From contig NC_060251.1 of assembly GCF_921293095.1 (NCBI RefSeq), forward strand, positions 89,762,566-89,826,565: a stretch of DNA of 64,000 nt, in the 5' to 3' direction. The notes below the pieces were generated by a model. It was not told the DNA's origin, did no database searches, and saw nothing but the letters and a program-made list of their open reading frames with translations. The position numbers and the translations under genes were made by a program. The DNA comes from Ischnura elegans (lineage: Eukaryota; Arthropoda; Insecta; Odonata; Coenagrionidae). This document shows, piece by piece, positions 1 to 63,158 of the stretch (position 1 is the first letter of the stretch; each line of letters starts with the position of its first letter).

Positions 1-1936
1 GGTAGCACCACATTTCGAATGCTTCCACTCTTGACTTCTCTGCTGCTGTCAACGTCCAAGCCTCGCTTCCATAGAGAAACATACTCCATATGTAGCATCT
101 GATGAATTGTTTCCTTACTTCTATGCTGGTATTTTCAGCTGTAAGAAGATTCTTCTTTTTGTAGCAAGCCCTCTTCGCCTGCACTATTCTACTGTGTATT
201 TCTTTCTTGCTCCGTCCATCGCTGGTAATTCGGCTTCCCAGGTAAGAGAACTCGTTCACCTCTTCAAGCTTATGCTTTCCTAGGTTGATGTTTGTTTTAG
301 CCTCCTCTCTTTTACTGCAAACTAATATCTTAGTCTTCTTTTTGTTGATTTTCAGCTGATATCTGGCCATTGTCCTTTCCATGTTTGTCAACGTCTTCTT
401 CAAATCCTTCTCTGTCTCGGCTGTGACTGCTATGTCGTCAGCAAATCGCAGCATACTAATTTTTTCTCCGTGGATATTGACACCCGAAGCTTTCTGCTTG
501 ATTTGTTGATGGCTTTCTCTATGTAAACATTAAAAATTAAGGGGGAAAGCGCACAACCTTGTCTCACCCCTTTTCTTATTCTCGCTTCTGCACCATTTGG
601 TCCACATTTGATCACAGCTTCTTGGTTTTTATACAAACTATGAATAATTCTACGATCATTGTAGAGTACACCGATTTCTTTCAAAATTCTAAGCATTGAA
701 TTCCATTCCACGTTATCGAAGGCCATCTCTAAATCGACAAATGCTATGAAGGTTGGTTTGTTTTCCTCCATTCTCTTCTCTATGATCATCCTAAGAGCCA
801 AAATTGCTTCCCTTGTGTCCCTGCTTTTCCTAAATCCGAATTGGTCCTCATCCAGGAATTCTTCTGCTCTTCGTTCAATTCTCCTGTAAATGATTCTTGC
901 CAGAATCTTCGACGCATGTGTCGTCAGGCTTATGGTCCTAAATTCTTCGCACTTCTCAGCTCTCTTCTTTTTGGGTATGGGGATGATGATGTTCTTCTCG
1001 AAGTCACTTGGTAAATCTCCTGTTGAGTACATATCGCAGATATGTAGTTTTATACAGTTGAGTTAAGACCTTTTCTCCTGCATTTTTTATTAACTCTGCT
1101 GGAATGTCATCTATTCCTGGGGCCTTATTCTTTCGCAGGTCTCTTACTGCAGCGTCAAATTCCGATCTTAAGATGCTTGCTCCAATGCTATCCTTTTCAA
1201 CTTCACTTTCCTCTTCGAGAACTTTTGAGCTAAGTTTGCTCCCGTTGTATAATTCCTCCAGGTATTCCTTCCATCTCTCGGCTTTGTCTTCGTTTTCAAT
1301 TAGAATGTTTCCATTCCTGTCCCTTATGCTATTACATTTTGTGTTTCGTTCCTTGAAATGGTTCCTCACTATTCTATAGGCCGCTTCCACTTTCCCTTTT
1401 ACGAGGTTATTTTGTACGTCCTCACATATGTTCCTCATCCACGCTTCTCTGGCTTTCCTCGCTTGGCAGCAAATCTCGTTCCTTATTCTCTTGTAGCAAG
1501 CCTGCCCTTCCTCAGTATTAGTATTCTTATACTTTCTCCTTTCTTCCATGAGGTCTAGGATTTCATCCGTGATCCATGGCTTTTTCTTAACACATTTTCT
1601 TATCCCTAGAACTTCTCTAGCGGCCTCCTGAAATCCACTTTTTATGGTAGTCCAGTTATTCTCAACTGAGTTTTCAGACTGATCTAGTCCTATCTTGTGC
1701 TCCACTACTTCTTGAAAGGCCTGTTGATTTTTTGGCTCTTTAAGTTTCACTAATTGCCAGGTGTTCTTTGCTGATTTCTTCAATTTCTTGAATTTCAGAT
1801 GGCATTTCATCATCACTAGATTATGATCACTGTCGATATCTGCCCCCGGGTAGCTTTTACAGTCCTTTATCTGGTTTCTAAACCTCTGCTTCACTAAAAT
1901 ATAGTCTAGTTGAAATCTTCTTTTGTCTCCTGGCAT
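1..1936 (-). pseudogene. LINE ORF2 remnant: endonuclease C-terminus + reverse transcriptase
   Basis: Three minus-strand frames together make one broken ORF2. Frame 1936-1004 holds the endonuclease end (residues Q-L-D-Y-I then S-D-H-N) and the pre-RT linker ending in K-A-P-G-I-D-D-I-P. Frame 1032-430 holds RT core blocks: I-P-K-K-K, the D-Q-F-G-F-R box, F-V-D-L-E-M-A-F-D (motif A), and G-V-R-Q-G-C-A-L-S-P. Frame about 495-1 holds F-A-D-D (motif C, about 438-449), Y-L-G-S and the W-T-L thumb region. Frameshifts lie near 1035 and near 490. Catalytic aspartates are still present in motifs A and C, but the protein cannot be made in one piece. Opposite-strand reading frames here are shadows. Confidence 0.9.
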
Positions 1937-1950
1937 TTTCCATAATACAA
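1..1950 (-). mobile_element. 5'-truncated APE-type LINE (copy A), continues beyond window start
   Basis: Read on the minus strand, this segment runs from the C-terminal end of an APE-like endonuclease (ending in an S-D-H-N box near 1835), through a basic linker, into a reverse transcriptase and its C-terminal extension, and is still open at base 1. The 5' end lies at about 1950, where similarity stops inside the endonuclease, as expected of an insertion truncated during target-primed reverse transcription. Its protein resembles that of copy B at 4690-7467 (same order, same RT motifs), so both belong to one broad LINE clade. I cannot name the Repbase family. The 3' tail is outside the window. 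Confidence 0.9.
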
Positions 1951-2633
1951 TGAAATCCTGGCCTTAGAGAGCTCACATTTATCATTAAAGGTCTTCCAAA
2001 AAAGCAACCATTGTCATAACAAGATTACCATTAATATAAAACAAATGCCAACACACCTACACTTGCTAAGTAGCAATATTTCTGAACATTATGAATATTT
2101 GATTGTAAATTGTCAAAAAAACAACTTTCTCCATTTAAAGAATTTGAAAAATAACACTAAAAGGACAAACCTGATAGAAATTTATCATATTTGATGGCTA
2201 AATGAAAGTTAGGAACTCTCAAACAGCAGTTTCCCTTTTGTCTTTAAATCTCAACTTTAATAACTAGTATTGAAGTTGAAATTTAGCAAATTATGATGCA
2301 AATTAAACTCAAGGAAAAGAAATCGATACAAACAAGTATGTACTGATATAAGATGAATTCGTTTGAGTGCCTGTGGAGTTCAATGAACACCTTGGATTGC
2401 CTTTTGCATGAGGAGGCACCCTCCATCTCACTGCATGCCAAAATGAAGAGGAGGGTGTCTTCATGGCTCAAGACATGTATGAAAGGGATTTCTGAGATCA
2501 AAATAAAATAGCTGGTTTGAAAATATGTATTCAATAGAATGAATAATATCAACTGTTATAATAAAATCTCATTGACTTCAATTATGCATGGTAGAAAGAG
2601 ATAAATACCTATCTAAAATCAACAATGACCTAC
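1951..2633. other. AT-rich spacer, nothing recognised
   Basis: Between LINE copy A and the hAT-like element I see no coding pattern, no inverted ends and no second copy in the window. A short minus-strand open frame (2283-2552) has no recognisable motif and is treated as chance. Confidence 0.5.
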
Positions 2634-2641
2634 ATATTGCC

Positions 2642-3293
2642 CACTGATGGCTTGCCCATAATGACTCACGGACGCCGCCCCTCCCTAAGATTTGAAAAAG
2701 GAAAAAAAATTAAATTCCCATTCCATTATAATTATACATCTATTAACCAAAGTGTTTTTTCAATCGTATAAATCGAAAATGTAGGAAAAACACGCAAAAG
2801 TAATGCGAGGAGCGTATTTGTAGCCTTAGGGCGCTGGCCAGAATGTTCCAATCCATCACCATGCAGTTTATGAAGAGTGGTAGAAGTGGGGGCTGCTGGT
2901 GCTATGCCGCATCTAAGCTTGTGCCTTATGGAAGTTTTGGGACGCTGCCCGAGCATGTGCAGAGCGGCGTATCTAGTGATCGCGCCGCCCGGCAGCCATA
3001 TGATCTTGGTGTAGCAGTGTTGCGGAATTTCTTGTTTTGGTGACCAAGTGACTTATTATGTGTAAATTGTTTTATCGAATGAGTGATTGGTACGTAAACA
3101 GGCCTAGTTGTAGTTGAGTTAATGGAGTTAGTGATTATAAGTGTTTTAGTGTTAGTGATTGTTTTGTGTATTTGAGAGTCATAATGGTCTCTTGATTGTC
3201 TAAAAAAATTCACTAAAATATACAAGATATTAAAAAATTTTGACCCCCGGTGGAGTGTGCCCCTCCTAGCATTTGACTCATGAGCCACCACTG
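2642..3293. mobile_element. non-autonomous hAT-like DNA element, 652 bp
   Basis: The element is bounded by a perfect 8-bp target duplication ATATTGCC (2634-2641 and 3294-3301). The ends are imperfect inverted repeats: CACTGATGGCT on the left and, on the complement of the right end, CAGTGGTGGCT. An 8-bp duplication with CAGTGGNGG-type ends is the hAT signature. The interior has GC-rich patches and accidental open frames, but no transposase similarity. Autonomous copies, if any, are elsewhere. Confidence 0.8.
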
Positions 3294-3301
3294 ATATTGC
3301 C

Positions 3302-4436
3302 AATCTTACCTTTGCATTCCATCTCTAGCTGCTATGAACTCCCTTCTGGCTAATCTGCTAGGCTGCTCACCAGACCTTGCAGATACTGTGGATCTGAGAA
3401 ATAGAGAGTCACACGTGAACATAATCATTACAGATACGATTCTTAAAAAAAAACTAATTTCATTCCAACACTAATATGGAAGCATAACAGCCGGGTCTTC
3501 AGTAATTTGGTTCATAATTAAATGTTAATAACCTGCCCGAACAGTCTTTGACCTCAGAAAGACAAACTGTTAACCCAACGAAATACTATGATGGAATAAT
3601 ATATTCACTAATTTTTCACTGTGATAATATCAATAGCCTCCAATGTGTAAGTGACAAAAAAGTTTTCCCTTTAATGTGCGGAATTGTGGAATGTGAAGAA
3701 TGTACAGAACACATAATTCGACTTCAATACAGTGTTGTTTTCTTATAGAATTACAATTTAAGTGTTCGTTATTTTTCATATGCCAGGATAAAAATAACAA
3801 TTTTTTTGCCAAGAGCAGAGTTTAACTTTCACCAGTGATTTTATTATGTGCCAAAGAAAAATGTTTCGAACCGTGAGGTGAATATTTCCTTGAGAGTGTA
3901 GTTTTGGGTGTTTAGGAATAAAAATGAGAGTTTCAATATAAGAGGTGATTTTTCCAAGTGATTATAGTTTTAATGGTGCGGAGTAATTATTTTAATTCCA
4001 GGAGAATTGGTTACGATTCCTCCTAATTATGAAGAAGTTTATGAAGAATGAGCATTAAAATGGGAGTTTCAAGTTTGAGGAAAAGATTTCTCTCCCTTAG
4101 TAATTTTTAGTTAGTTGGGGTAGAATAATGAATTTTACATCATGAATAATGAAAGAATGGGATAAAAAATACATTTTACATAGGAGAAGATGTGAAGATA
4201 TAAAAATTTTTTTACGAGCATCACTTTTATAGTTTATGAAATTATCTGATCATGCACTAAAAAACTGAGGAATTTCTGCTATAATTTCAGATTAAGGATG
4301 CGACTGATTATTTGTTGATTCACTCTAATCTGAACTTACGATTCCATTCTTAAATTCCTTTAAAGGAGGAGAAAATACATTTCAGCCAAAAAATATCAAT
4401 TAAGCCGTGCATTCTACATCATGTGGAACCTGTCAT
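3302..4436. other. AT-rich spacer, nothing recognised
   Basis: This stretch contains low-complexity A/T-rich DNA with recurring words such as gagtttcaa. It has no gene, RNA or mobile-element end that I can support. Confidence 0.45.
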
Positions 4437-4439
4437 GGA

Positions 4440-4580
4440 GAAAGGTGTAAGGTAGTAGATTGAGATGGTTTGGGCATGTGAAACTGAAGAGTGAGAAGTT
4501 TTTTTGAGGAAGAGAGTGTAGCCACTCCAGATGGTAGGGAAGAGATAATCAGAGTAGCTGAGAAGGAAAAACAAGGTGAT
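4440..4580 (+). pseudogene. LINE reverse-transcriptase C-terminal remnant
   Basis: Around 4456-4482 the plus strand reads R-L-R-W-F-G-H-V-K, the conserved W-F-G-H-V block found downstream of the RT domain in many insect LINEs. A shifted frame that continues A-T-P-D-G-R follows. This is a short, frameshifted relic of an element different from copy B, because copy B has no such block at its start. It lies directly upstream of the hAT-like end at 4587. Confidence 0.55.
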
Positions 4581-4686
4581 TCAGGACATTGGCGTAGCCA
4601 GGGGGGGTGCAGGGGTTCTGGACCCCACCAAAATATAAAAACACACTCATTTTCCTTCATAAAAGAAAACAAAATATTGAAAAATC

Positions 4687-7421
4687 ATGAATGAAGTTTT
4701 TTCGATTATGAAAAGTGTTAAGATGGGGGGGACTATTGGAGTGATGGGCATAGAGTTATATATACATAGTGGTGGGGAGGAAAGCCAGCGAGGGGTAGCT
4801 TTAGTATTAAACGGGAAGATGGGTAAGCGTGTGGTAGGCATAGACCAGGTAAGCGATAGGATTCTGGTGGTAGGAATTGAGGCGCGGCCCACAAACCTTG
4901 TGGTGATCCAAGTTTACATGCCCACTAGCAATCATAGGGAGGAAGAAGTAGATGAGGTGTATGAACAGCTCGAGGAAATAATTAGAGACACACCGGGTAA
5001 GAAAAATCTGGTAGTGATGGGGGACTGGAATGCCTCAGTCGGGGAAGGGAGGGATGGAAATGAAATAGGAGATTTTGGTCTAGGAATACGGAACGACAGC
5101 GGAGAGAAAGCAGCAGAATTTTGTAGGAGAAACAAATTATTCATCACAAACACGTGGTTCAATCATCATAAAGGGCGAAGGTACACATGGAAAAGTCCAG
5201 GGGATGTGGGGAGATATCAAATAGACTACATTATGGTAAGACAGAGGTTTAGGAATAGTGTGAAAAACTCGCGCAGCTTCCCTGCAGCGGATGCGGATTC
5301 GGACCACAATGCTCATGAAATGCATCATAAGTTTAAAAAGACTTGTAAGAGTTAGGAAGGCGAAGAAATGGAACGTAGAAGCCCTGAAAGGGAGTATGAG
5401 GAGAGAATATCAGGAACTAGTGGACATTAGTATGCGGGACATCGACAGCACCAAGACGGTTGAGGAAAGATGGGATAACATTAAAACGGGAATAGTCAAA
5501 GCGGCGGAGAAGTCAATTGGTTACGCTGACAGTAGAAAAATAAAGAAGCCGTGGATAACGGAGAACATGATAAGGGAAATGGAGGAGAGGAGGAAGTGGA
5601 AGAACGTGGTCACAGAACAGGGCAAAATAATGTATAGACAAATTAATAATCGATTACGGCGTGAAACAAAGAGAGTAAGGGAGGCTTGATGGAAAAGACA
5701 GTGTGAGGAAATGGAAAAGTTCCAGAAGGATGGAGAAGTAGGCGCGTTGTACGCCAAAGTGAAGTCGCTATCGGGCGGCAAAAGAGGACAAGCCATGGCT
5801 AAAATTAATACTAACCGAGCGAGAAGAGGTACAGAGTAGATGGAAGGAATACGTGGAGGACCTGTATGACGGAATGAACAGACCAGAGAGATTGACTCTA
5901 GAGGAGGAAAGTGCAGTGGAGGAGGATAATCTTGGGCCGGAGATATTAGATTCGGAAATAGAGAGAGCAATCCGTGGTATGAAGGCTAGGAAAGCAGTAG
6001 GCGTGGACAATATACCGTGTGAGCTTCTGAAGAATCTAGGGAAGGAAGGTAAGAAAAGGTTTTTCGAACCAGTGCGCAGGATCTATGACGAGGGATGTCT
6101 GCCGGAGGATTTCGTGAAGACGGTTTTAATTCCGCTTCCGAAAAAGAAGAAAGCTGTGGAATGCGGAGATTATAGGACTATCAGCCTAATATCGCATGCG
6201 GCGAAAGTGGTGCTGAGGATATTGAACAGACGAATGGAGGCGAGTGCAAACGAGTATTTAGGCCAAGATCAGTTTGGTTTCAGAAAAGGGAAGTCAACTC
6301 GTGATGCAATAGCAATAATGAGGTCCCTCGTGGAGAGGGGGCTAGAATATGACCAGGACGTGTATGCGTGTTTCGTAGATTTTGAGAAAGCGTTTGATAG
6401 GGTGAACTGGGTTAAGTTAATGGATATTCTCAAGAGAATAGGTGTAGATTGGAGGGGTAGACGACTGATTCGTAATCTGTATATGGCCCAGACTGCGCAC
6501 GTGAGGGTAGCGAACGGAGAATCTGGGTGGGCAAGCATTGGCCGAGGTGTGAGGCAAGGCTGTCCTCTATTGCCGCTGCTCTTTAACGTGTACGCTGAAG
6601 AGATGGTAAGGGAAGCGTGGGATGAGTTAGAAGCTGGAATAAAAGTGGGAGGAATGATGTTCAAATCAGAGAGATTCGCGGATGATCAGGCGTTGATTAG
6701 CCAGTCAGCGAGGGGGCTTCAGGCTCTAGTGGATGCGTTATACGAGCGTTGCGAGGAGTATGGGATGAGGATTAATCCTAAGAAAACTAAGATAATGCGG
6801 TTTTGTAAAGCATCACGAGCGAGGAATGTGAGACTCAAGATAAAGGTGGGTGGTGAAAAACTTGAGCAGGTTGAGCAATTCAACTATTTAGGCAGTACGT
6901 TAGAGGAAAACGGATACAGTAGTAAGGACATAAGGAAGAGAATCGCATTAGCGAAGGAGGCATTCATGAACAGGAAGGAGCTTCTGAGAGGATCGTTGTG
7001 GAAGAGTTTAAAGAAAAGGTTAGTGAAGAGTTTGATCTGGAGTGTAGCACTCTACGGTGCGGAAACGTGGACACTGAGGAAAGAAGACGAGAGAAGATTG
7101 GAGGCATTCGAGATGTGGGTATGGAGAAGAATGGAGAGGGTGAATTGGACGGAGAGGAAAAGGAATGACGAAGTGCTGGATATGGTTGGCGAGGAGAGGC
7201 AGCTTTTAGATGAGATACGGAGGAGACAGAAGGTATGGATGGAGTTAGTGCTTAGCGGTGAGGGGATGTTGAAAATGGTGTTAGAGGGTAGAATGTTAGG
7301 GAAACGAGGGAGGGGAAGGAAGAGAATAGGATTTTTAGATAGATTGAAAGAGAGTAGGCCTTACAGTGAATTGAAGAAGACAGCACTGGAAGGAAAGGGA
7401 GGCTCCCAGCTCACTTCTTGA
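4687..7421 (+). pseudogene. LINE ORF2: endonuclease + reverse transcriptase, broken
   Basis: The coding order is APE-like endonuclease (4720-5305; blocks V-V-M-G-D-W-N-A, Y-T-W-K-S, I-D-Y-I and S-D-H-N), linker (5306-5850), reverse transcriptase and C-terminal region (about 5800-7421). The RT part is the best preserved: it has a single open frame to a stop at 7421 with D-Q-F-G-F-R-K, F-V-D-F-E-K-A-F-D (from 6372), G-V-R-Q-G-C-P and F-A-D-D (6675-6686), so the catalytic aspartates are intact. Lesions are a frameshift at about 5311, a TGA at 5687-5689, and a frameshift near 5795. The frame carries on upstream of the first methionine-like codon. A zinc-knuckle ORF1 is not visible, consistent with 5' truncation. 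Confidence 0.9.
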
Positions 7422-7467
7422 ATACTCCATGAAAACCTACCTTAATCGGTAGAATACTAATAATAAT
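4690..7467 (+). mobile_element. APE-type LINE (copy B), 5'-truncated, with (TAA)n tail
   Basis: A plus-strand LINE of about 2.8 kb. The 3' end carries a short UTR after the ORF stop (7421) and a TAATAATAATAA tail (7456-7470). The hexamer AATCAT occurs at both edges (4684-4689 and 7468-7473) and is the probable target duplication. The copy begins inside the endonuclease, lacking roughly the first 80 residues compared with the usual domain start. Tails of the same family occur on the minus strand at 12476-12712 and 58562-58798, showing the family was active repeatedly in this genome. Confidence 0.9.
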
Positions 7468-7550
7468 AATCATTTTTCAAAATTTTACGCGGATCCCCCG
7501 TTGCTTGGGGGTATCGCCCCCCTACGCCCCTCATCTCCCCCAAAGTATAC

Positions 7551-7710
7551 GCCGGCCTCGGTGGCGGCGGGGTAAAGTCCTCGACTGCCAAACAGGAGGT
7601 CGCGGGTTTGAGTTCCGCCTGGGTAAGTTACCCCTAGCCAGGGCATGGTTGTTTGTGTGCGTTAAGCTGTTAAAATGATATTAACTCCGGTGTAAAAGGC
7701 CGTATAGTAG
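7551..7710 (+). mobile_element. tRNA-derived SINE, copy 1
   Basis: It starts GCCGGCCTCGGTGGCGGCGG and is nearly identical to the unit at 52965-53165 over the first 100 bases. A pol III B box (GGTTTGAGTTCC, 7604-7615) and an A-box-like GTGGCGGCGGGGT lie at tRNA-like spacing. The body GGTAAGTTACCC...CAGGGCATGG and the block AAAGGCCGTA are shared with copy 2. The A/T-rich tail seen in copy 2 is missing, so this copy is 3'-truncated or decayed. It is not a functional tRNA gene: there is no acceptor pairing. Confidence 0.85.
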
Positions 7711-8230
7711 GGCGGATCGGAAAAATCGATTTTTTTCAAATTCATCTGGCCCAATGAAAAAAAGTTGTGGGACCGATCAAAAGTAAGGCCTGAAATTTTT
7801 GAGACCTCTAGGTGAACCTCTGACCCTCGCTCAAATGCAATTTAGGGGGGGAAGGTCGAAATTCGAAAAACATAGTATTTTATGGTCATTTCCTAAAGAT
7901 TTTGCCGAGTTACTGTTCTTTAAGGGTAAAAATTTCGTGCATTTCGACGTATCTGCCACCGTTTAGCCACAAAATGCCTAATTTGAGCCCGCGCCCGCGA
8001 AGAAAATATTCCAACGCCCACGCAGCGTCACGGATACAAAAGCCGCAGGCCGATCCCCTCCCCTCCCCGCTGGCTTCTACCCCTCCCACGCCTCCAATAC
8101 AGCAAAATTCATCCCGCGTATGCTGCTAGGAGGTCATTTATCTTTGATAATATAAATCGGAAGATGGTAGAAGGTAATAAAGGAAGCTTAGTGAAACGAC
8201 TTGTCCCTTATTAGGTGCCTCGTCGGGGTT
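7711..8230. repeat. probable unclassified repeat with GGGCGGATCGGAAAAAT start
   Basis: Immediately after SINE copy 1 comes a stretch beginning TAGGGCGGATCGGAAAAATC, followed by a GC-rich portion (7985-8130). Its composition changes abruptly relative to both flanks. The short word GTAGGGCGGA occurs again at 42419, but no longer second copy is visible. The plus-strand open frame at 7902-8129 is Pro/Ser-rich and not recognisable. Confidence 0.3.
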
Positions 8231-8735
8231 AAACAAATCGATGTTAGCAACTTTTAGAGAAGTGATGAAATATTTTTAGATTGCCAAATAGAATGATAGA
8301 AATAATTGCCTCCACAATGAGAAAAAAATATACTTTTAAAGGCATAGTTGAAAATACGTGTGATCATCAAGTTACTGACGTGAATTTTAGTCTTTCGAAA
8401 AGTTTTGGCGGTTCCGAAGGCTGGTTGGAGTAAGTCCTTCTTCTTTTTGAGGTGGATCTTTTTACTGCAGCTACAACTTCCAACATAATCTGTTATCAGC
8501 CTGATCTTTCTTTTCATATACATACTTTTTCCATTGCCAATAGTTTGACGCATTAAGTTATAGGTCGTCATTTACCTTTTGCCAAGGATTTTTCCTTTTG
8601 TAATATTTTGCGTGAAGTCGTATTTCTTGAGTAATATGCCGATGACATTTACCACCTTATTTCATATAGAACATTTTCCAAAAGTTCTTTTAATGTTAAG
8701 AATTCATTTGGTACGTGCTCAATTAGTTTTATGCA
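8231..8735. other. AT-rich spacer, nothing recognised
   Basis: I see no supported gene or repeat here. A minus-strand open frame of 105 codons (8254-8571) has no motif I recognise. Confidence 0.4.
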
Positions 8736-15144: not shown

Positions 15145-18100
15145 ATGGATCGCTGGGTGGGCAAAGTAGCGGTTGTGACCGGGGCCAGCGCCGGCATTGG
15201 CGTGAGCATCGTGAAGGAGCTAGTGGACCGTGGAATGGTCGTGGTGGGACTCGCCAGGAGGGTGGAAACAGTTGAGGTAATAAAGGTCATTGTAAAAATA
15301 AAGAAACTTACACGAGGGAAAATTTTTCAGGATATATATATATATTACCAGTTCACCACGAAAAAACATTTTCCCCGCCAAGTTTATAAATTTATTATAT
15401 AAAAATATCACAGGTTGGGCAGAAGCACAGGACACAAAAAGATAAAAAAACACTCACAGAACTAAATTTTCGGTGGTATACATCCACCTTCCCCAGAGTT
15501 GTGTTTCTGTGAGTGTTTTTTATCTTTTTGTGTCCTGTGCTTCTGCCCAACCTGGGATATTTTTATGTTATTTATCTCGTCGAGGAACATTTCGAAGAAT
15601 TTATTATAATAGGTAATATATATTTAACTTTGCAAATATTTTTTCATAAATATATTGTACATACAAATTTGCGCCCGTCATGGTTAGCTTTTCGATTATT
15701 CATAAGTGGAAAGTAAAAATTATAGGAGCGTAACAAAGCTGAATAAAGTATATATGTAAACTGACTGCGGGCAAAACTGATTCCTGTGGTATCTAGTATC
15801 TTAGCTTCATATTTTGATAGTCATTATTTTCAGGAGTTGGCAAAAACCTTGAGCGATCGCAAAGGAAAACTTTACGCCGTGAAGGCTGACGTCTGCAAAG
15901 AAGAAGATGTTGCGGAGGCCTTTGACTGGGTTCGCAAAAATCTCGGAATAATCCACGTGCTCGTAAACAATGCAGGATACGCTCCGTATACCTTCATAGC
16001 AAATCGTAAGTAGCTATTTTATCTCTCTTTGAATATTTTCAATTGATGTTTATCATTTTTTTGGGTATTTTTACTGCCTCTTTTCCAGTAACACATACAG
16101 AAAACACTCAAAGGGGGGGGGAAAGATATTTTGAGCTACCTATACTTTTATCGTAATAAAAAATAATTAAGTTACATGCAAAGTTTAAATTAGTTTTATT
16201 TAAACTTATTATACGCATATTAAAGACAATGCTATATTATGATAAAAAAAGTTACAATTATAGTTCTGCAATTTTCGGCAATTTGGTCAGCCCCGCAAGG
16301 GTGGGGAGGCGCCCCCATATGTATCCACCATTACTCTTTTCATGCCTTTTACTATGCATCCAACCGCTATCAACAGCCTCTTGCGTTGCAAGAAAACCTC
16401 TGTAACTAAATAGAAACACAGAAATCAGAAATTCATGCATGAAATATGTTTTTGCTTCTTTTATCATCTCATGCATGAAACTCATTTCATGAAGTCTTTT
16501 GCAACAACCTATGGCGTTGTAAGCTCGTCGCCAAAGCATTTCAATAACTCGACTACCTTTTAAGGGAACTTAAATTACTTTAGTTCTCATGCATTTTATG
16601 AACTTATTGACACAATTTAAAGGAGAGTGTTATAATTTTCGATCACTGACATAAATAGCAATTCATAGAGTTTAGGTCGCATTTTATGGAACAACCTTTC
16701 CATTGCTGGCGTATCAGAACGTAATCTCTTCTATCCTCAAAGCTATGTGAAAAACCAAAGTTACAAAAACTGCAGTTTTAACTCGGGTACCATTTATGGT
16801 GTACCATTAAATGCTTCGTTAAAACTTTCGCGGGTGCTCGTCATGATGAATAAAAAACTTTTGGGCTATGTCGCCGCGTCAATTCTTGGGCGGCCCCAAC
16901 GTTTCACGACCGATGCTGGTCGCTTTTTCAAGGGATTCTTCAATCAAGGGATTCTTCAATCTTCCTTGAAAAAGCCGCCGGCATCGGTCGGGAAACGTTA
17001 GGGCCGCCCAAAAATTGACGCGGCGACATAGCCCAAAAGTTTTTTATTCATAATCAATAAACACTATAATACAGATCTAGATTATGATAGATATGGTATC
17101 TACATATTCCTTGTTTTTAGGACGTTACAAGATTTTATCAGTTTTAGAAGTATATCTAACTCCTAGATTCTCACAATCGTTTTTCCATCACTTTGAGTGA
17201 GCACCAGCGATGCCTTTTCATTTTTTTCACCTAAAAAAGGTGTAGACCCATCATTTTTTTTAATCACACAGTCATTCCGCCGTCCCTTTACTATCAATTG
17301 TACCATAGTTTGTCACACCATTTCAAATTTCTACTGCTCATTGTTGCACGTCCTGCATCACGAAACGTCTTTAACTCGGTCAATTTAATAATATACCTAC
17401 GTATATATTTGGGAGCGCTACTATAGAAAATTTACAACGGCACGATTTTCATCATTTCTGTACAACTCGATTTATGCTGGCTAGCTCAATGTTTACGACA
17501 GTCATTCCATCAAAATCCAAACGTTGCACTACAACCACTGCTAGTGGCCGTGCTTTCTGATAGGCAACAAGACTAGGTGTTAACTATGGTTTTAGATATG
17601 TAAAAATAGACGTGTCGAGTAATCAAAAAAAGGGATGGGAATCATATCCCTGGAGCCATAGCTGAAAACGAACACGAGAAACGGTCGCTTATCCGCCATC
17701 ATTGGAGCTATCCCTCGAAACGGATGGAGAAAAATGTTCGTGTGTTTCAATCTTAAAGCATTATCAGCATCATAATTTTTAATGGTTCTCGTGATCTCTA
17801 AATTGTAGTTATAGTTTGTTGAACCTTTTGGTTTTCTTAATTGAATCCCTGAAAATGTAAGGGATTAATGCAAAAACTTGGGCATTGGAAAGCTAGATTT
17901 TAATTCAATGCGACGTATACTCGAGATAAGTGAGGTATTATAATTAATTTTTTTCATAATTTGTCAAATTCTATCATCTCGTACAGTACAGAGGGAGCAG
18001 TACAGTAAAATTAAACTCTGCTTCGACACAAACGTGGTTGGAGTCATCATGTGTACCAACGAGGCCCTCAAGCTTATGCGAGAGAAAGGCATAGATGATG

Positions 18101-22156: not shown

Positions 22157-22421
22157 CAGTGGCGGATACATATGGGGGGGAGCAGAGAGCGCGTGCCCCC
22201 CCTTGCGGGGCTGCCCGCATAGCCAAACATTGCAGAACCACAATTTTAACTTTTTTACATAATAAGATAGCATTTTCTGGTATATGCGTATAATCAGTTT
22301 AAATATAACTATCTTAAATTTTGCACGCAACTTGATTATTTTTCAATACGATAATAGTACAGGTAGCTTAATATATCTTTTGCTTCTCCCACCCCCTTGA
22401 ATTTTTCTGTATCCGTAACTG
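22157..22421 (+). mobile_element. hAT MITE (family H1), 265 bp
   Basis: It is flanked by a perfect 8-bp duplication TGTAAAAT (22149-22156 and 22422-22429). The left end is CAGTGGCGGATACATATG. The right end complemented is CAGTTACGGATACAGA. The same family is inserted in SDR intron 2 (16086-16333). It has no coding content. The ends and the duplication size place it in the hAT superfamily. Confidence 0.92.
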
Positions 22422-22429
22422 TGTAAAAT

Positions 22430-25985: not shown

Positions 25986-26034
25986 CTGTTCAATTGAAAA
26001 GTGACAACTTTCCATTGAACAAATAGACACTCAA

Positions 26035-26424
26035 TTGAATTCCAAATCAAACAGACTTCTGTACACAAAAATAAAATCAGAAACCCCAAAAAAACTAAAA
26101 AGTAACATAATATACCACATACCATGCCTCGATTGTAATAGTTGTTACATTGGTCAAACTTCTCAATATTTAAAAAACCGAATATCCCAGCACAAATCAT
26201 CAATAAAAAATAAAATCACTCTTTCTGCTCTTGCAAATCACAGTCTAGACTATAACCATCATTTTGATTTCGAGAACACCAAAATTTTAGACATAGAAAC
26301 CAATTTTAAGAAAAGATTATTTAAAGAAATGGTTTACATATCAAAATCAAATAACAGTTGCAATAAAAGATCAGACATCGAACACCTAAGCAAAATTTAT
26401 TATTATTTAATTCATCGAAATTAA
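26035..26424 (+). pseudogene. Penelope-like GIY-YIG endonuclease domain fragment
   Basis: The open frame of about 130 codons ends at a TAA (26422-26424). Near residues 26-40 it reads I-I-Y-H-I-P-C-L-D-C followed by S-C-Y-I-G-Q-T and R-I-S-Q-H-K. This is the C-x-x-C-x(n)-Y-I-G-Q-T-x-R pattern typical of Penelope endonucleases (the GIY motif replaced by I-Y-H / Y-I-G). An A-N-H-S block and a K-I-L-D motif follow in the usual order. No in-frame stop interrupts the domain, but the RT part is absent, so it is a fragment of an element ORF and not a host gene. The first ATG is inside the element ORF and is not a real start. Confidence 0.82.
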
Positions 26425-26980: not shown

Positions 26981-27129
26981 CTCCCAATTGCATTGAACAT
27001 CCCTCTCTATTTCGTAATAACGCCTGTTTTCTTTCTTTCAATGAATATTCGCCTCGTTTCCCACCTCATCCTTGCCTTCCTAGCATTCTGCCCCGCAACA
27101 CAGTTTTTTAACGTCCCCCTAGTAGCACA

Positions 27130-27445
27130 AGAAATGTTGAGCATATGCTCAGATTATGTCAGGGAAATATGTTTTGCACACAACATTAGCATATGCTGAA
27201 AATATGTTCAGCAGATGTTTAAAACCACATGTTTTCAACATATGCTCGAAATATTTCCAGCATATGTTCAGACGATGTGTTGAGCATATTTTCATAGAAA
27301 TATGCTGCACATGTGTTCAACAAAATATGTTGAGCATATATACGTAGACATATGCTCCACATGTGTTCAACGAAATATGTTGAGCATATATACGTAGACA
27401 TATGCTCCACATGTGTTCAACGAAATATGTTGATCATATTTTCAA
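27130..27445. repeat. left subterminal CATATG palindrome array with a 50-bp direct repeat
   Basis: Repeated words TGTTGAGCATATGCTCA, AACATATGCT and CATATGCTCCACATGTGTTC alternate in both orientations. A 50-bp unit is perfectly tandem at 27311-27360 and 27361-27410 apart from one base, with a partial third unit. CATATG recurs about every 15-30 bp. Confidence 0.85.
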
Positions 27446-30111
27446 GAAAATATCTATGCGTTCTGAGAAATATTTCGTCGACAAATCAGCGATCAGGATT
27501 CGAATACTGCATGCTAGTTTTATAATTAATGTAAAGGAATATATCTAATTCTAGTTTATTCTAATTCAAGTATATCAATTCATAATTTTAACCAAGGCCC
27601 TGATTTTAACACTTTAAAAATAATTGAAGAGCGAGACGCATGCGTCGACGTTGTTGTGTGTGTTCATGTTGCTATGATTTCATTGCTCAAATCGCACGTT
27701 GTTTACGTTACTTTATACAAGAGGAGAGAGCCCAGTTACCTCGGAATCATCTAGAAGCATGAAATGTAAGTACATTGGTAGATATATATATGAAATTACT
27801 ATTTTACAATTAGTACTAACTGTTCTTGTGTGATATCGTAAAAGTTCTCAATCGCTGTTTATGAACTGAATTGTGGTCGTAAATGCCGTATTAAGTTATT
27901 CCTGCCCAATGTAAATACTTGGATCGAATATGATGCATGTAACCGAGTGAGTGCGAAAATGTTCGATCAAAATCAATCATAGCCACAATGAAATGTGAAG
28001 GAAGTAATAAATTCTTGGTCAAGGATTAGAGCCTGTTCTAATTTCGTTTGTGAATCTATTCATAAACTCTTTTTTTGTTCATGCTAATATCGTAACAAGG
28101 CCATAAAATTATGATAACAGCACCATTTCATGAATGCTAAACTAATCGCTGGATGATGAATTAGCCCTCTCTTTCATGGTATCATTTTGAGGCATAATTA
28201 ACTAATTTGTAACCAAGTATCATTAACGAACTTATTTTGTGAATAACTGTCGCAGCGAAGTGCTAACAGTAAATATGAGTAGTCTCGACTAGGAATCATG
28301 TTAACACAGTTGCACTCTGATATGAGGGAACGAAACAAAGAATTGGCATGGGTAACCCATGGGGATGGCTCAAAAGGAGTGCATGATACGTACTATCGTT
28401 AGTTTTTCCATCAGATTACTAAAAATTTACTTTAGCACTTAGGCGATTCACTCAGAAGTAAGGGGACAAAAATAATCGAGTTTATTTGCAGTATCTACAG
28501 TATTCCTGTGGTTCGTGCCTCAAATACTAGCCAAATCTGGCATATATATTGCTTGGGTTTCACGGATTTCAAGACATACACCATATGCGCATTGGTATTT
28601 ATAATTTCATGGACAATTGGAGACCAAAGTCACATAATGTGTATCTTAAGCGATTTTTTATGGAATATAAGGCTCCACATTATAGTGGAATTAAATTTAA
28701 TGTTGTCAATTGAACCGTTTGTTCTGTTAAACATGATACTCTCAGGTTCATCATAATTTTCTTGCTTTCCATATTTCATTACATATTTTAAGCAATGCAA
28801 AATCTGTTAATGAGAAATGTCTGTTTAGTCATGCAAAAAAATGACATTTTTATTTTTTGAAGAACTTCACCCTCTTGCATGGAAATGAATCGGTGTCTTA
28901 AAATGTTCATGACCTCACTAATCTATTAGTATTATCTTCATCTAGCTCTCAATAATTGTATTATGTTGATGGACTTACATGGAAATGTATTGTAGGATTA
29001 TTGATATTTAAGACCAATGTATATATACACTAGCTGACATGAATAACTTTTACATTACATATTGTGTGAACTTATGATGCAATACTTCCCTTACTGCACT
29101 ACTTCCTCTCCTTAGTCTGTCTCATGCAAATTTTAAATTTTGCAACTTAATGTTAATTTACCATTCATGAAAGATGTCAATATTCACCATTTTCAGGTTA
29201 AAGAAGTAATAATTTTTTGCTGTTTAGTGCTTGTTTAGTGGATAAATATTGATTTCTGTTTATTTTAATCTACAGATGCTCTCCACTCTTGTCTTATGTT
29301 TAGCAGTGCTGATAAATGTGCCTTTCTTGAGTTAACGTGGCTACGATGGTCGTGCTGCCTGAAGAAGACTGAGAGAAATCAAGGAAAAGAATAGGATTGA
29401 AATATTTGTTGATAATGTTAAATGCTTATGTTTTTTATTAGAATAAATCTACTTCATTATCAAATTGCAGAACTATGTCATACTTGATTCTCCTATTATA
29501 TCCTATGTAATCCATTATCTACCAATTGATTACATATTCCGTAGGAGCTCCATCAAAGGATAAAGTGGCAGTAGACTTTAATAATTACAAATAATTTGGG
29601 CTAAAGCATCATAGTGGCTCATGATACCACCTATGTATCAATATTCTTATTAATGTTACTAAAACATGCCTTAGCCCTTTTCCTTGTTCGTTCAATCTTT
29701 CGTACGTTGTAATCTAGCAGTGTGGAGTGTAATGCTTTCAGATGCACATGTGCAGTGGAGCTGGTGAGAGCTGTACGATGACAGGGCTAAAGAGGATGTT
29801 GAAGGGTTAGACAACATGATAATCAGTACCATCAATGCTTTATTCTGTCGAATGCTTATCATTTATAAATTTTAAATTAACATTGGCGATTTCAAATCCT
29901 TGACCAAATTTAGTTGTATTAATGATTAAACATTTTCAATTTAAAGTGCTAATCTGATAACTTGAGTGAATGCAATGTGTAGGTCTGACATCATGCCCTA
30001 AGTCCACAGTGAAAGGCAGGAGTGGTAAAAAGGAGAGAATTTGTGCATCTATAGGTATTGCAAGGTTGTAAGGGAATACTTTTCATAAGGGGGATAAATG
30101 GATGCAACCTC

Positions 30112-30312
30112 ACCCTAGTGAAAATCTCCATAGGATTTCTTTTTCCTTTAGTAATTTGACAATGGGAAATGATTGTTCCTATAGGAAAAGTTTAGGTTCC
30201 TATGGGAAAATAAAATTTTCCTGTAGGAACATAAAAATTTCCTATAGAAACAAATGTTTCCCATTGTCAAATTACTATTGGAAAAAAATCCTGTAGATAT
30301 TTTCACTAGGGT
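30112..30312. mobile_element. 201-bp palindromic MITE, ends ACCCTAGTGAAAAT
   Basis: Inverted arms of about 58 bp start ACCCTAGTGAAAAT and contain GTAATTTGACAATGGGAAA. The loop is a series of TTCCTATAGGAA-like palindromes. It lies directly beside the right subterminal array of the 3.5-kb unit and shares the first seven bases CCCTAGT with that unit's ends, so the two may use related transposases. No target duplication could be fixed. Confidence 0.75.
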
Positions 30313-30625
30313 ATGCTGAGCATATTTTGGGAGAATGATGGGCATATGTTAAAAACATATGTTGGGCATAATTGGAAACCATGCTGAGCATATGTTAAAA
30401 ACATATGTTGAGCATAAGTGGGTAATATGCTGAGCATATGTTAAAAACATATGTTGAGCATGTGTGGAAAACATTCTGAGCATATGTTGAAAACTTGTGT
30501 TGAACATATGTTGAGCATATGCCTTGCCGGACATTTACATATGCTCAGCATGTGCTCAAATTGTGTTGAACACATCTTACATATGTGTTGAAAATGCCCT
30601 GAGCATACTCTGAACACAAATTGTG
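30313..30625. repeat. right subterminal CATATG palindrome array
   Basis: Tandem and inverted copies of TGAGCATATGTTAAAAACATATGTTGAGCATA-like units lie here in the reverse order to the left array. They end in TGCTCAGGGCATT-type words next to the right terminus. Confidence 0.85.
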
Positions 30626-30959
30626 CTACTAGGGCCTGTTCACAGTATACAACCCATACTTTTTGTCTCCTACATACACGCTCTCACCAATAATGATAAC
30701 TTAATGGGAAAATACAGGAATTTGTGAAACTACTTTTTAAAAAAATTATCGAAATAAGCGATGCATGAAGCGTTTCATCGATGGATAAATCAAATTGTCT
30801 GCAATTATTGTAATAAACTTCGCCCATTTATGCGTTCTACTATCAGTGAATTGAATATCACCATTGCACTCGGTACTGATGGCTATACGGAAGTGCTTAC
30901 TGCAAATGGGCACTTGACGCTAATAGCTCCTAATAAGCCGAATCGCACGTGCTAGGGAA

Positions 30960-62202: not shown

Positions 62203-63158
62203 TACAGGGTTTGTCCGGAAAGTAATAGGACTGAGTCGATTTAAAAAAAATTATTGAGCCAATCGTTACAATTCTTTAAACATTTTCAAAATAGGCTCCT
62301 TCTGCGTCGATACAGAGCTGCCATCGCGATTTCCAAGCATTGAAGGCGTCACAGAAGACATTCTCCGAAATTGCCTCGAGAGCCGAGGTGCATGCTGCTT
62401 GGATCCCCTATGTCGTCTCAAAATGCTTGCCTTTCATCGGCCATTTTACACAAGGAAACAAAAAAAAAGTCTGGGGGGCCACATCTGGGCTGTAGGGCGG
62501 CTGCGGAAGCGTTGGGATGCCGGCATTGGTTAATTAGCTGTTCACATGAAAGGCGATGTGAGCCGCAATTTCTAGTCGTCAGTGAGCACTTTTGGGACCA
62601 TCTTCGCGCACACATCTTGCGCATGTTCAAATGCTTCGTCACAATGTCATGAACCACAGATTTTGATAAATGTAACATCTGGGCAATTAAACGAATGCTA
62701 AGTCGACGGTCTGAGTTCAAAACTTTGTGCACACGAGTCAAAATGTCGGTGTTTGCCGAAGTCACAGGTCTTCCAGCACCGTCTTCATCAGCGACCTCTT
62801 CCCGGCCCTCCAAAAAGGCCTAGTGCCACCGAAACGCACCACTTCTTGCTAAAGCAACATCTGGGTAAGACTACTTGATCATAACAAACGTCTCTGTCGC
62901 ATATTTACCGAGTTTCACTCAGAATTCAATCGCGTACCTCTGCTGTAACGAACGCTGCATTTTTGGTTTGCACCACTCACAGAAACACGTCGCGCAAAAA
63001 AGTCTGTCCTGACTCTCCAGGTGCTCGCAGACAACTGACCAGCCGCTCGTTCGTTAGCTAGAAACACCCTCTACCAAATTCAGTCGGTGCAAACACGCTC
63101 CGAAGTACAGTCGCGGTGGAAGAAAATCAGTCCTATTACTTTCCGGACAAACCCTGTA
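62203..63158 (-). mobile_element. mariner element, deletion derivative, 956 bp
   Basis: Perfect inverted ends of about 32 bp start TACAGGGTTTGTCCGGAAAG, with TA on either side (62201-62202, 63159-63160). A broken transposase lies on the minus strand. A full mariner is about 1.3 kb; the missing part is the middle of the transposase. The near-perfect ends suggest a recent insertion. Confidence 0.9.
62270..62965 (-). pseudogene. mariner transposase, internally deleted and frameshifted
   Basis: Reading the minus strand, the N-terminal helix-turn-helix part is recognisable: F-L-E-G-R-E-E-V, G-A-G-R-P-V-T-S, S-D-R-R-L-S-I-R-L-I-A, L-S-K-S-V-V-H and M-R-K-M-C-A-R. It then jumps, near 62550, to the C-terminal part P-P-Y-S-P-D-V-A-P ... 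F-F-L-F-P, then H-F-E-T and W-K-S-R-W-Q-L-C-I. The first two catalytic aspartates are missing with the deleted middle, the last is shifted out of frame in a C-run, and stops interrupt both ends. It cannot encode an active enzyme. Confidence 0.88.

Follow-up and report, generated by a model that had tools for sequence, protein, structure and literature searches.

The unit at 27117-30634 of the window, by which we mean the whole stretch of 64,000 nucleotides from the odonate Ischnura elegans that was analysed, is a mobile element of young age, very probably a non-autonomous transposon that belongs to the TRC group within the CACTA (En/Spm) superfamily, of which this group forms the animal branch. 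The sequence-only reading that preceded this work had taken the unit for a transposable element, and the genome bears this out with copies that have exact ends, 2-bp target duplications and empty sites. We infer the superfamily solely from the termini and the size of the duplication. The coordinates of the element and its parts are collected in Table 1.

Table 1. Parts of the element and its flanks, in window coordinates
Feature	Position	Strand	Basis
Whole element, very probably a non-autonomous TRC/CACTA-type transposon, 3518 bp	27117..30634		copies ending exactly there; empty sites of other copies
Target site duplication, left copy, CC	27115..27116		flank; 2-bp duplication in 32/33 copies
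Left terminal inverted repeat, CCCTAGTAGCACAA perfect, 36 nt at 81%	27117..27152	+	12 nt at the start identical to the Tribolium TRC terminus (PMC1636069)
Left subterminal palindrome array, CATATG-like sites	27134..27453		autocorrelation 11, 25, 50 bp; larger unit 50 bp
Interior without recognisable protein	27454..30112		longest stop-free frame 106 aa; Pfam scan
Junction of probable internal deletion	29817..29819		8 longer copies hold 709-714 bp extra; 3-base overlap at junction
Foldback, 72-nt arms, 85% complementary, own CCCTAGTGAAAAT ends, 199 bp	30113..30311		inside element
Right subterminal palindrome array	30312..30612		autocorrelation 11, 22, 24, 33, 35, 46, 57 bp; larger unit 46 bp
Right terminal inverted repeat	30599..30634	-	complementarity to left end
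Target site duplication, right copy, CC	30635..30636		flank

Genomic copies, ends and target duplications

The 1.72-Gb assembly that contains the window (110 contigs) was searched with the whole element, its left end and its right end, and of the first-look candidates the best 39 of 234, 40 of 129 and 40 of 123, respectively, were scored. Grouped by hand, these candidates amount to at least 54 loci of the family. We fetched the 39 loci of the whole-element search together with five that have left ends (L071-L114, L071 being the window copy). Both terminal 12-mers are present in 33 of these 44 loci, and in the other 11 an end is truncated, mutated or interrupted, or lies partly outside the fetched stretch. 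Loci L115-L117 were left out of this count, as their stretches include the right terminus only, in L116 with one mismatch.

Genome copies stop exactly at 27117 and 30634, the ends proposed by the sequence-only reading, which had held that the unit would be no element if copies never ended there. The termini of the window copy are complementary at 81% over 36 nt, with the first 14 nt perfect, close to the 38 bp or so of inverted similarity that had been claimed, and CCCTAGTAGCACAA stands at both ends in inverted orientation. When copies were compared for their ends and target duplications, the earlier view that there was no clear duplication had to be given up: CC/CC flanks the window unit, and a 2-bp duplication accompanies the exact ends in 32 of the 33 fetched copies with both terminal 12-mers, whereas a 3-bp match was found in none of the 33. 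Shuffling the pairing of the flanks 2000 times gave on average 5.5 and at most 13 2-bp matches, against the 32 observed (n=33). The left flanks of 31 copies are varied (AA 9, AT 6, TT 4, TA 4, TG 3, CC 2, then CG, CT and GT).

Empty sites give the same size of duplication. The flanks of the insertion in L081 overlap by exactly 2 bp when set against an empty paralogue (n=1), and so do those of the L073 insertion (C19:48387632), for which two empty paralogues lie in the window itself, at 16095-16167 and 22333-22422. These two intervals are stretches of a dispersed repeat. The one exception among the two-ended copies is L074, with flanks CG/GG; its empty paralogue, found in L065, overlaps by 1 bp, in a run of G.

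Pairwise divergence among 31 copies, gaps excluded, averages 1.07% (range 0.03-1.9%), and the family is therefore young. Both of its size forms, of 3.5 kb and of 4.3-4.4 kb, have spread. Seven of the eight longer copies that were measured are two-ended and 4298-4421 bp long. Among the 47 loci L071-L117, 14 have 189 nt or more of the added segment; the diverged copies L110 and L114 are among them and contain all or a large part of the ~0.7 kb. The 3-base overlap at the junction had raised the idea of a later insertion of ~710 bp, but BLAST finds no terminal inverted repeat in the stretch and L110 and L114 carry it; on these grounds we favour, without regarding it as proved, that the short form has lost the stretch. 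The 3.5-kb copies would thus probably derive from the 4.3-4.4-kb form by an internal deletion of ~0.71 kb. A further variant, of ~3.6 kb, aligns to the query as 1-753 + 670-3518, i.e. with query bases 670-753 doubled, which are single in the window copy.

Superfamily and competing readings

Words of 10-11 bases from the termini were searched for in the literature, which brought up the SmTRC1 paper (PMC1636069); the same kind of search gave no match for CCCTAGTAGCACA. In its passages on Tribolium castaneum, that paper gives a TRC element with the terminus CCCTAGTAGCACCGAATATTTGTAAAA and a 2-bp duplication. The first 12 bases of the Ischnura element, CCCTAGTAGCAC, are identical to that terminus at 12 of 12 positions, and over the full 27-base Tribolium repeat 18 (left) and 17 (right) bases match, the agreement being poor beyond base 12. 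Although a word search of this kind also yields chance matches, this one exceeds chance because it falls on a transposon terminus, in register, and extends two bases past the word searched. The earlier statement that no superfamily fits the CCCTAGT start is thus superseded, CCCTAGTAGCAC being a published TRC/CACTA terminus with a 2-bp duplication (PMC1636069).

The two insect elements have CCCTAGTAGCAC, identical at both ends, and the 2-bp duplication in common. They differ in that the Tribolium element is ~5.2 kb long and was found by a search with the SmTRC1 transposase, whereas the Ischnura element measures 3.5-4.4 kb and has no recognisable transposase; the sequences part after base 12, and the passages on the Tribolium element give no account of its subterminal region (PMC1636069, passages on Tribolium). 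SmTRC1 itself, from Schistosoma mansoni, resembles our element in its CCC start, its 2-bp duplication (in 7 of 14 copies) and its internally deleted copies, and is unlike it in having a 54-bp terminal repeat of other sequence and in encoding Transposase_21 (PMC1636069, passages on SmTRC1). Spongebob, filed as TRC within CACTA, likewise has a CCC start and a 2-bp duplication; its terminus is a different one, CCCAGCCAACATTGAC, and the passages of PMC4298943 that deal with the element make no mention of subterminal palindromes. Those passages use a CCC start and a 2-bp duplication to recognise TRC elements (PMC4298943). Our element has both: a terminal inverted repeat that starts with CCC, with CCCTAGTAGCACAA at both ends and both 12-mers in 33/44 loci, and a 2-bp duplication in 32/33 copies and at the empty sites. 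It begins with CCCTA, one base off the CACTA of the plant type, as does the Tribolium TRC element. Subterminal repeat arrays are present in it; those of the plant type are bound by a TNPA-like protein. None of the 31 stop-free stretches of the window copy reaches the Pfam cut-off for Transposase_21 (PF02992).

The termini of piggyBac elements begin with CCC as well, and no transposase was seen in the copies, both of which would suit a non-autonomous element of another superfamily, for instance a piggyBac or PIF/Harbinger relative, that shares the CCCTAGTAGCAC ends by chance. The duplications argue against this. Those of piggyBac are TTAA, whereas here the duplications are 2 bp long with varied letters, neither TTAA nor TWA, so piggyBac was rejected. 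Helitrons have neither a target duplication nor terminal inverted repeats and were set aside, given that our element has both. PIF/Harbinger, ISL2EU and Spy (PHIS) elements are described, in the relevant passages of PMC4482050, with a TWA or AT duplication or with none inside AAATTT; this group was rejected too, with 6 of 31 left flanks being AT and a 3-bp match in 0 of 33 copies. Together with the identity of all 12 terminal bases to a TRC element (PMC1636069), this makes membership of another superfamily very improbable and leaves the TRC assignment as our preferred reading.

Both arrays are tandem repeats, and they might in principle be unrelated satellite DNA at the two ends of a unit that is no transposon. 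The pair, however, is found again at the ends of copies whose surroundings differ; these ends are precise, and there are 2-bp duplications and empty sites, so that this explanation is refuted and retains next to no probability. In viral contigs the exact CCCTAGTAGCACAA was found at 61 loci, with the mirrored end at none of the 61 and at most 2 CATATG nearby, and we read these as chance occurrences. A longer pattern had no occurrence in viral contigs and one in prokaryote contigs (L062), and phages gave no match.

Subterminal arrays and interior

The palindrome arrays of ~300 bp that the sequence-only reading had noticed inside both ends are far denser than expected by composition: the left 340 bp contain 6 exact CATATG, where 1000 shuffles gave a mean of 0.6 and a maximum of 4, and the right 323 bp contain 11, where as many shuffles gave a mean of 0.5 and a maximum of 3. 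Outside the element, no 340 bp of the window holds more than one. With one mismatch allowed, there are 24 sites on the left and 16 on the right; the periods in Table 1 are those at which the autocorrelation of the CATATG site score exceeds 0.2. The arrays had been described as mirror images of each other, which the alignments do not support: with the terminal 40 nt removed, left and right align better in direct than in inverted orientation, both locally (86 versus 73) and globally (70 versus 64). Each array also scores against its own reverse complement (left 85, right 58), as many of the units are near-palindromic.

Binding of a transposase or another DNA-binding protein to the arrays is plausible by analogy with plant CACTA elements. 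CATATG also fits CANNTG, i.e. it is an E-box, and the palindromes could instead serve host transcription factors, in transcription or silencing of the element, without being required for transposition. Locus L094 would agree with such a role: at 2656 bp it lacks query bases 76-949 and with them most of the left array, yet its termini are intact and it has an AA duplication. Judging by this copy, the full left array may be dispensable, or it may have been lost after insertion. We nevertheless consider a role confined to host factors unlikely, as the arrays lie directly inside both termini with an 11-bp phasing, an arrangement that matches how cis-acting sites are laid out in plant CACTA elements (PMC2613891, passages on subterminal repeats). 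Protein binding in the service of transposition thus remains the reading that we prefer.

That no protein is seen in the interior, as noted from the sequence alone, was upheld. The longest stop-to-stop frame in the element is 106 aa, and none of the 31 stop-free stretches of at least 40 aa in the window copy, all of which were scanned, reached a curated Pfam cut-off; the lowest E was 0.022, for a frame within the left array. The lack of a Pfam-level protein in these stretches suggests that the element should be mobilised in trans, by a protein that a partner would make. No recognisable transposase was found in any copy read, using Pfam on selected fragments. The sequence-only reading had suggested looking for a longer copy encoding a transposase. 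Longer copies of 4.3-4.4 kb exist, and their extra 709-714 bp gave no protein, the longest frame being 90 aa with no Pfam match, so that we rejected them as autonomous elements. The larger inserts of L112, L113, L114 and L115 were likewise discarded as a source of transposase, none being seen there for this family. Those of L112 and L113 contain reading frames that by eye we take to be Gypsy-retroelement-like, L114 has a ~4.1-kb insert with no frame longer than 111 aa, and L115 has two inserts.

Some further features were observed in the fetched loci and in the window. In L115, a 1561-bp insert (reverse strand 3583-5143) has inverted ends GGGC..TATTACGTAA and a 140-aa frame, without a Pfam match at E 0.01, that presumably resembles a Harbinger nuclease. 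In L111, a frame on the minus strand (3974-4429) adjoins a truncated element copy; it too has no Pfam match at E 0.01 and to our eyes is reminiscent of the small subunit of DNA primase. The foldback within the element abuts the inner edge of the right array and starts with the same 7 bases as the terminus of the enclosing element, with no target duplication visible around it. Positions 430-7421 hold two non-LTR retroelement fragments with Pfam RVT_1 and Exo_endo_phos domains (reverse transcriptase and endonuclease). The fragment of a GIY-YIG domain at 26005-26424, immediately before the element on its upstream side, comes, we assume, probably from a Penelope-like retroelement, and at 62418-62819 there is a weak winged-helix Pfam match below the cut-off, in a fragment that we take to be mariner-transposase-like. 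Rfam returned no family at gathering score in the window.

Units with the same terminus and a proposed mechanism

CCCTAGTAGCAC occurs 488 times in the genome, compared with 47 occurrences of a reversed control, and among the matches listed (the first 100 of the 488) inverted pairs enclose units of ~0.4, 0.6, 2.8, 3.3 and 14.9 kb. The pair 14.9 kb apart (G000 C1:14834814-14849698) is a possible autonomous element. Two of the units were compared with ours: L118 (stretch 1-2905), of 2805 bp, and L119 (stretch 1-491), of 391 bp, both with CCCTAGTAGCAC ends and with the duplications AC/AC and TA/TA, respectively. L119 resembles L118 at both ends, with matches of 84-92% in pieces of 97-173 nt. Set against the Ischnura element, L118 matches over 18 nt at most, and L119 gives no match better than E 0.04 (25 nt). 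CATATG is missing from both units; TATACA and AGATAT are among the different motifs that abound at their ends. These units therefore share one terminus with our element and differ from it in subterminal sequence, a situation that resembles plant CACTA elements. Bases 454-2562 of L118 match part of an L115 insert at 96.8%; L118 is thus probably composite, and the subterminal comparison rests on the outer parts common to L118 and L119. That L115 insert, of 2928 bp and lying inside the element copy (reverse strand 5502-8429), begins with CCCACACAGCACAAG, ends with TTGTGTGCTGTATGGG and is flanked by AA/AA; it is probably a further transposon with a CCC start and a 2-bp duplication.

Plant CACTA elements (En/Spm, Tgm) are like ours in having short conserved termini followed by family-specific direct and inverted subterminal repeats, and unlike ours in their CACTA start, in their repeat motifs and, for Tgmt*, in a 3-bp duplication (PMC2613891, passages on these elements). 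According to the same passages, TNPA recognises the subterminal repeats, which are cis-determinants of excision and diverge while the termini stay conserved, and the proteins can work in trans on deletion derivatives. The anatomy of the Ischnura element fits this scheme. A transposase made by a partner would recognise the CCCTAGTAGCACAA ends, excise the element and insert it with a 2-bp staggered cut. Most likely, the ~300-bp CATATG arrays would be occupied by many copies of a protein encoded by the partner, either its transposase or an accessory protein of the TNPA kind, and this protein, bound to palindromes spaced by about one helical turn (11 bp) and its multiples, would bring both ends together. 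The partner protein and its binding to the arrays are put forward here by analogy with the plant elements.

Beyond this, we raise one tentative idea, to which we give a limited chance: several TRC families in this genome might share the 12-14-bp terminus and one kind of transposase, each with its own unrelated palindrome array and its own accessory protein. The helical phasing of an array that belongs to this idea was seen in the CATATG family.

At the level of superfamily, our assignment would give an orphan repeat a home in the animal branch of CACTA, which is established but has been little described, with a family that has recently been mobile in the genome. The units that have the terminus but not the subterminal sequence of this family could serve as test material for a separate array-binding protein in animal CACTA elements. 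If several families do share a terminus in this way, they would be an animal counterpart of the plant CACTA system with its two components, TNPD and TNPA, one in which the arrays, and not the termini, set the identity of a family.
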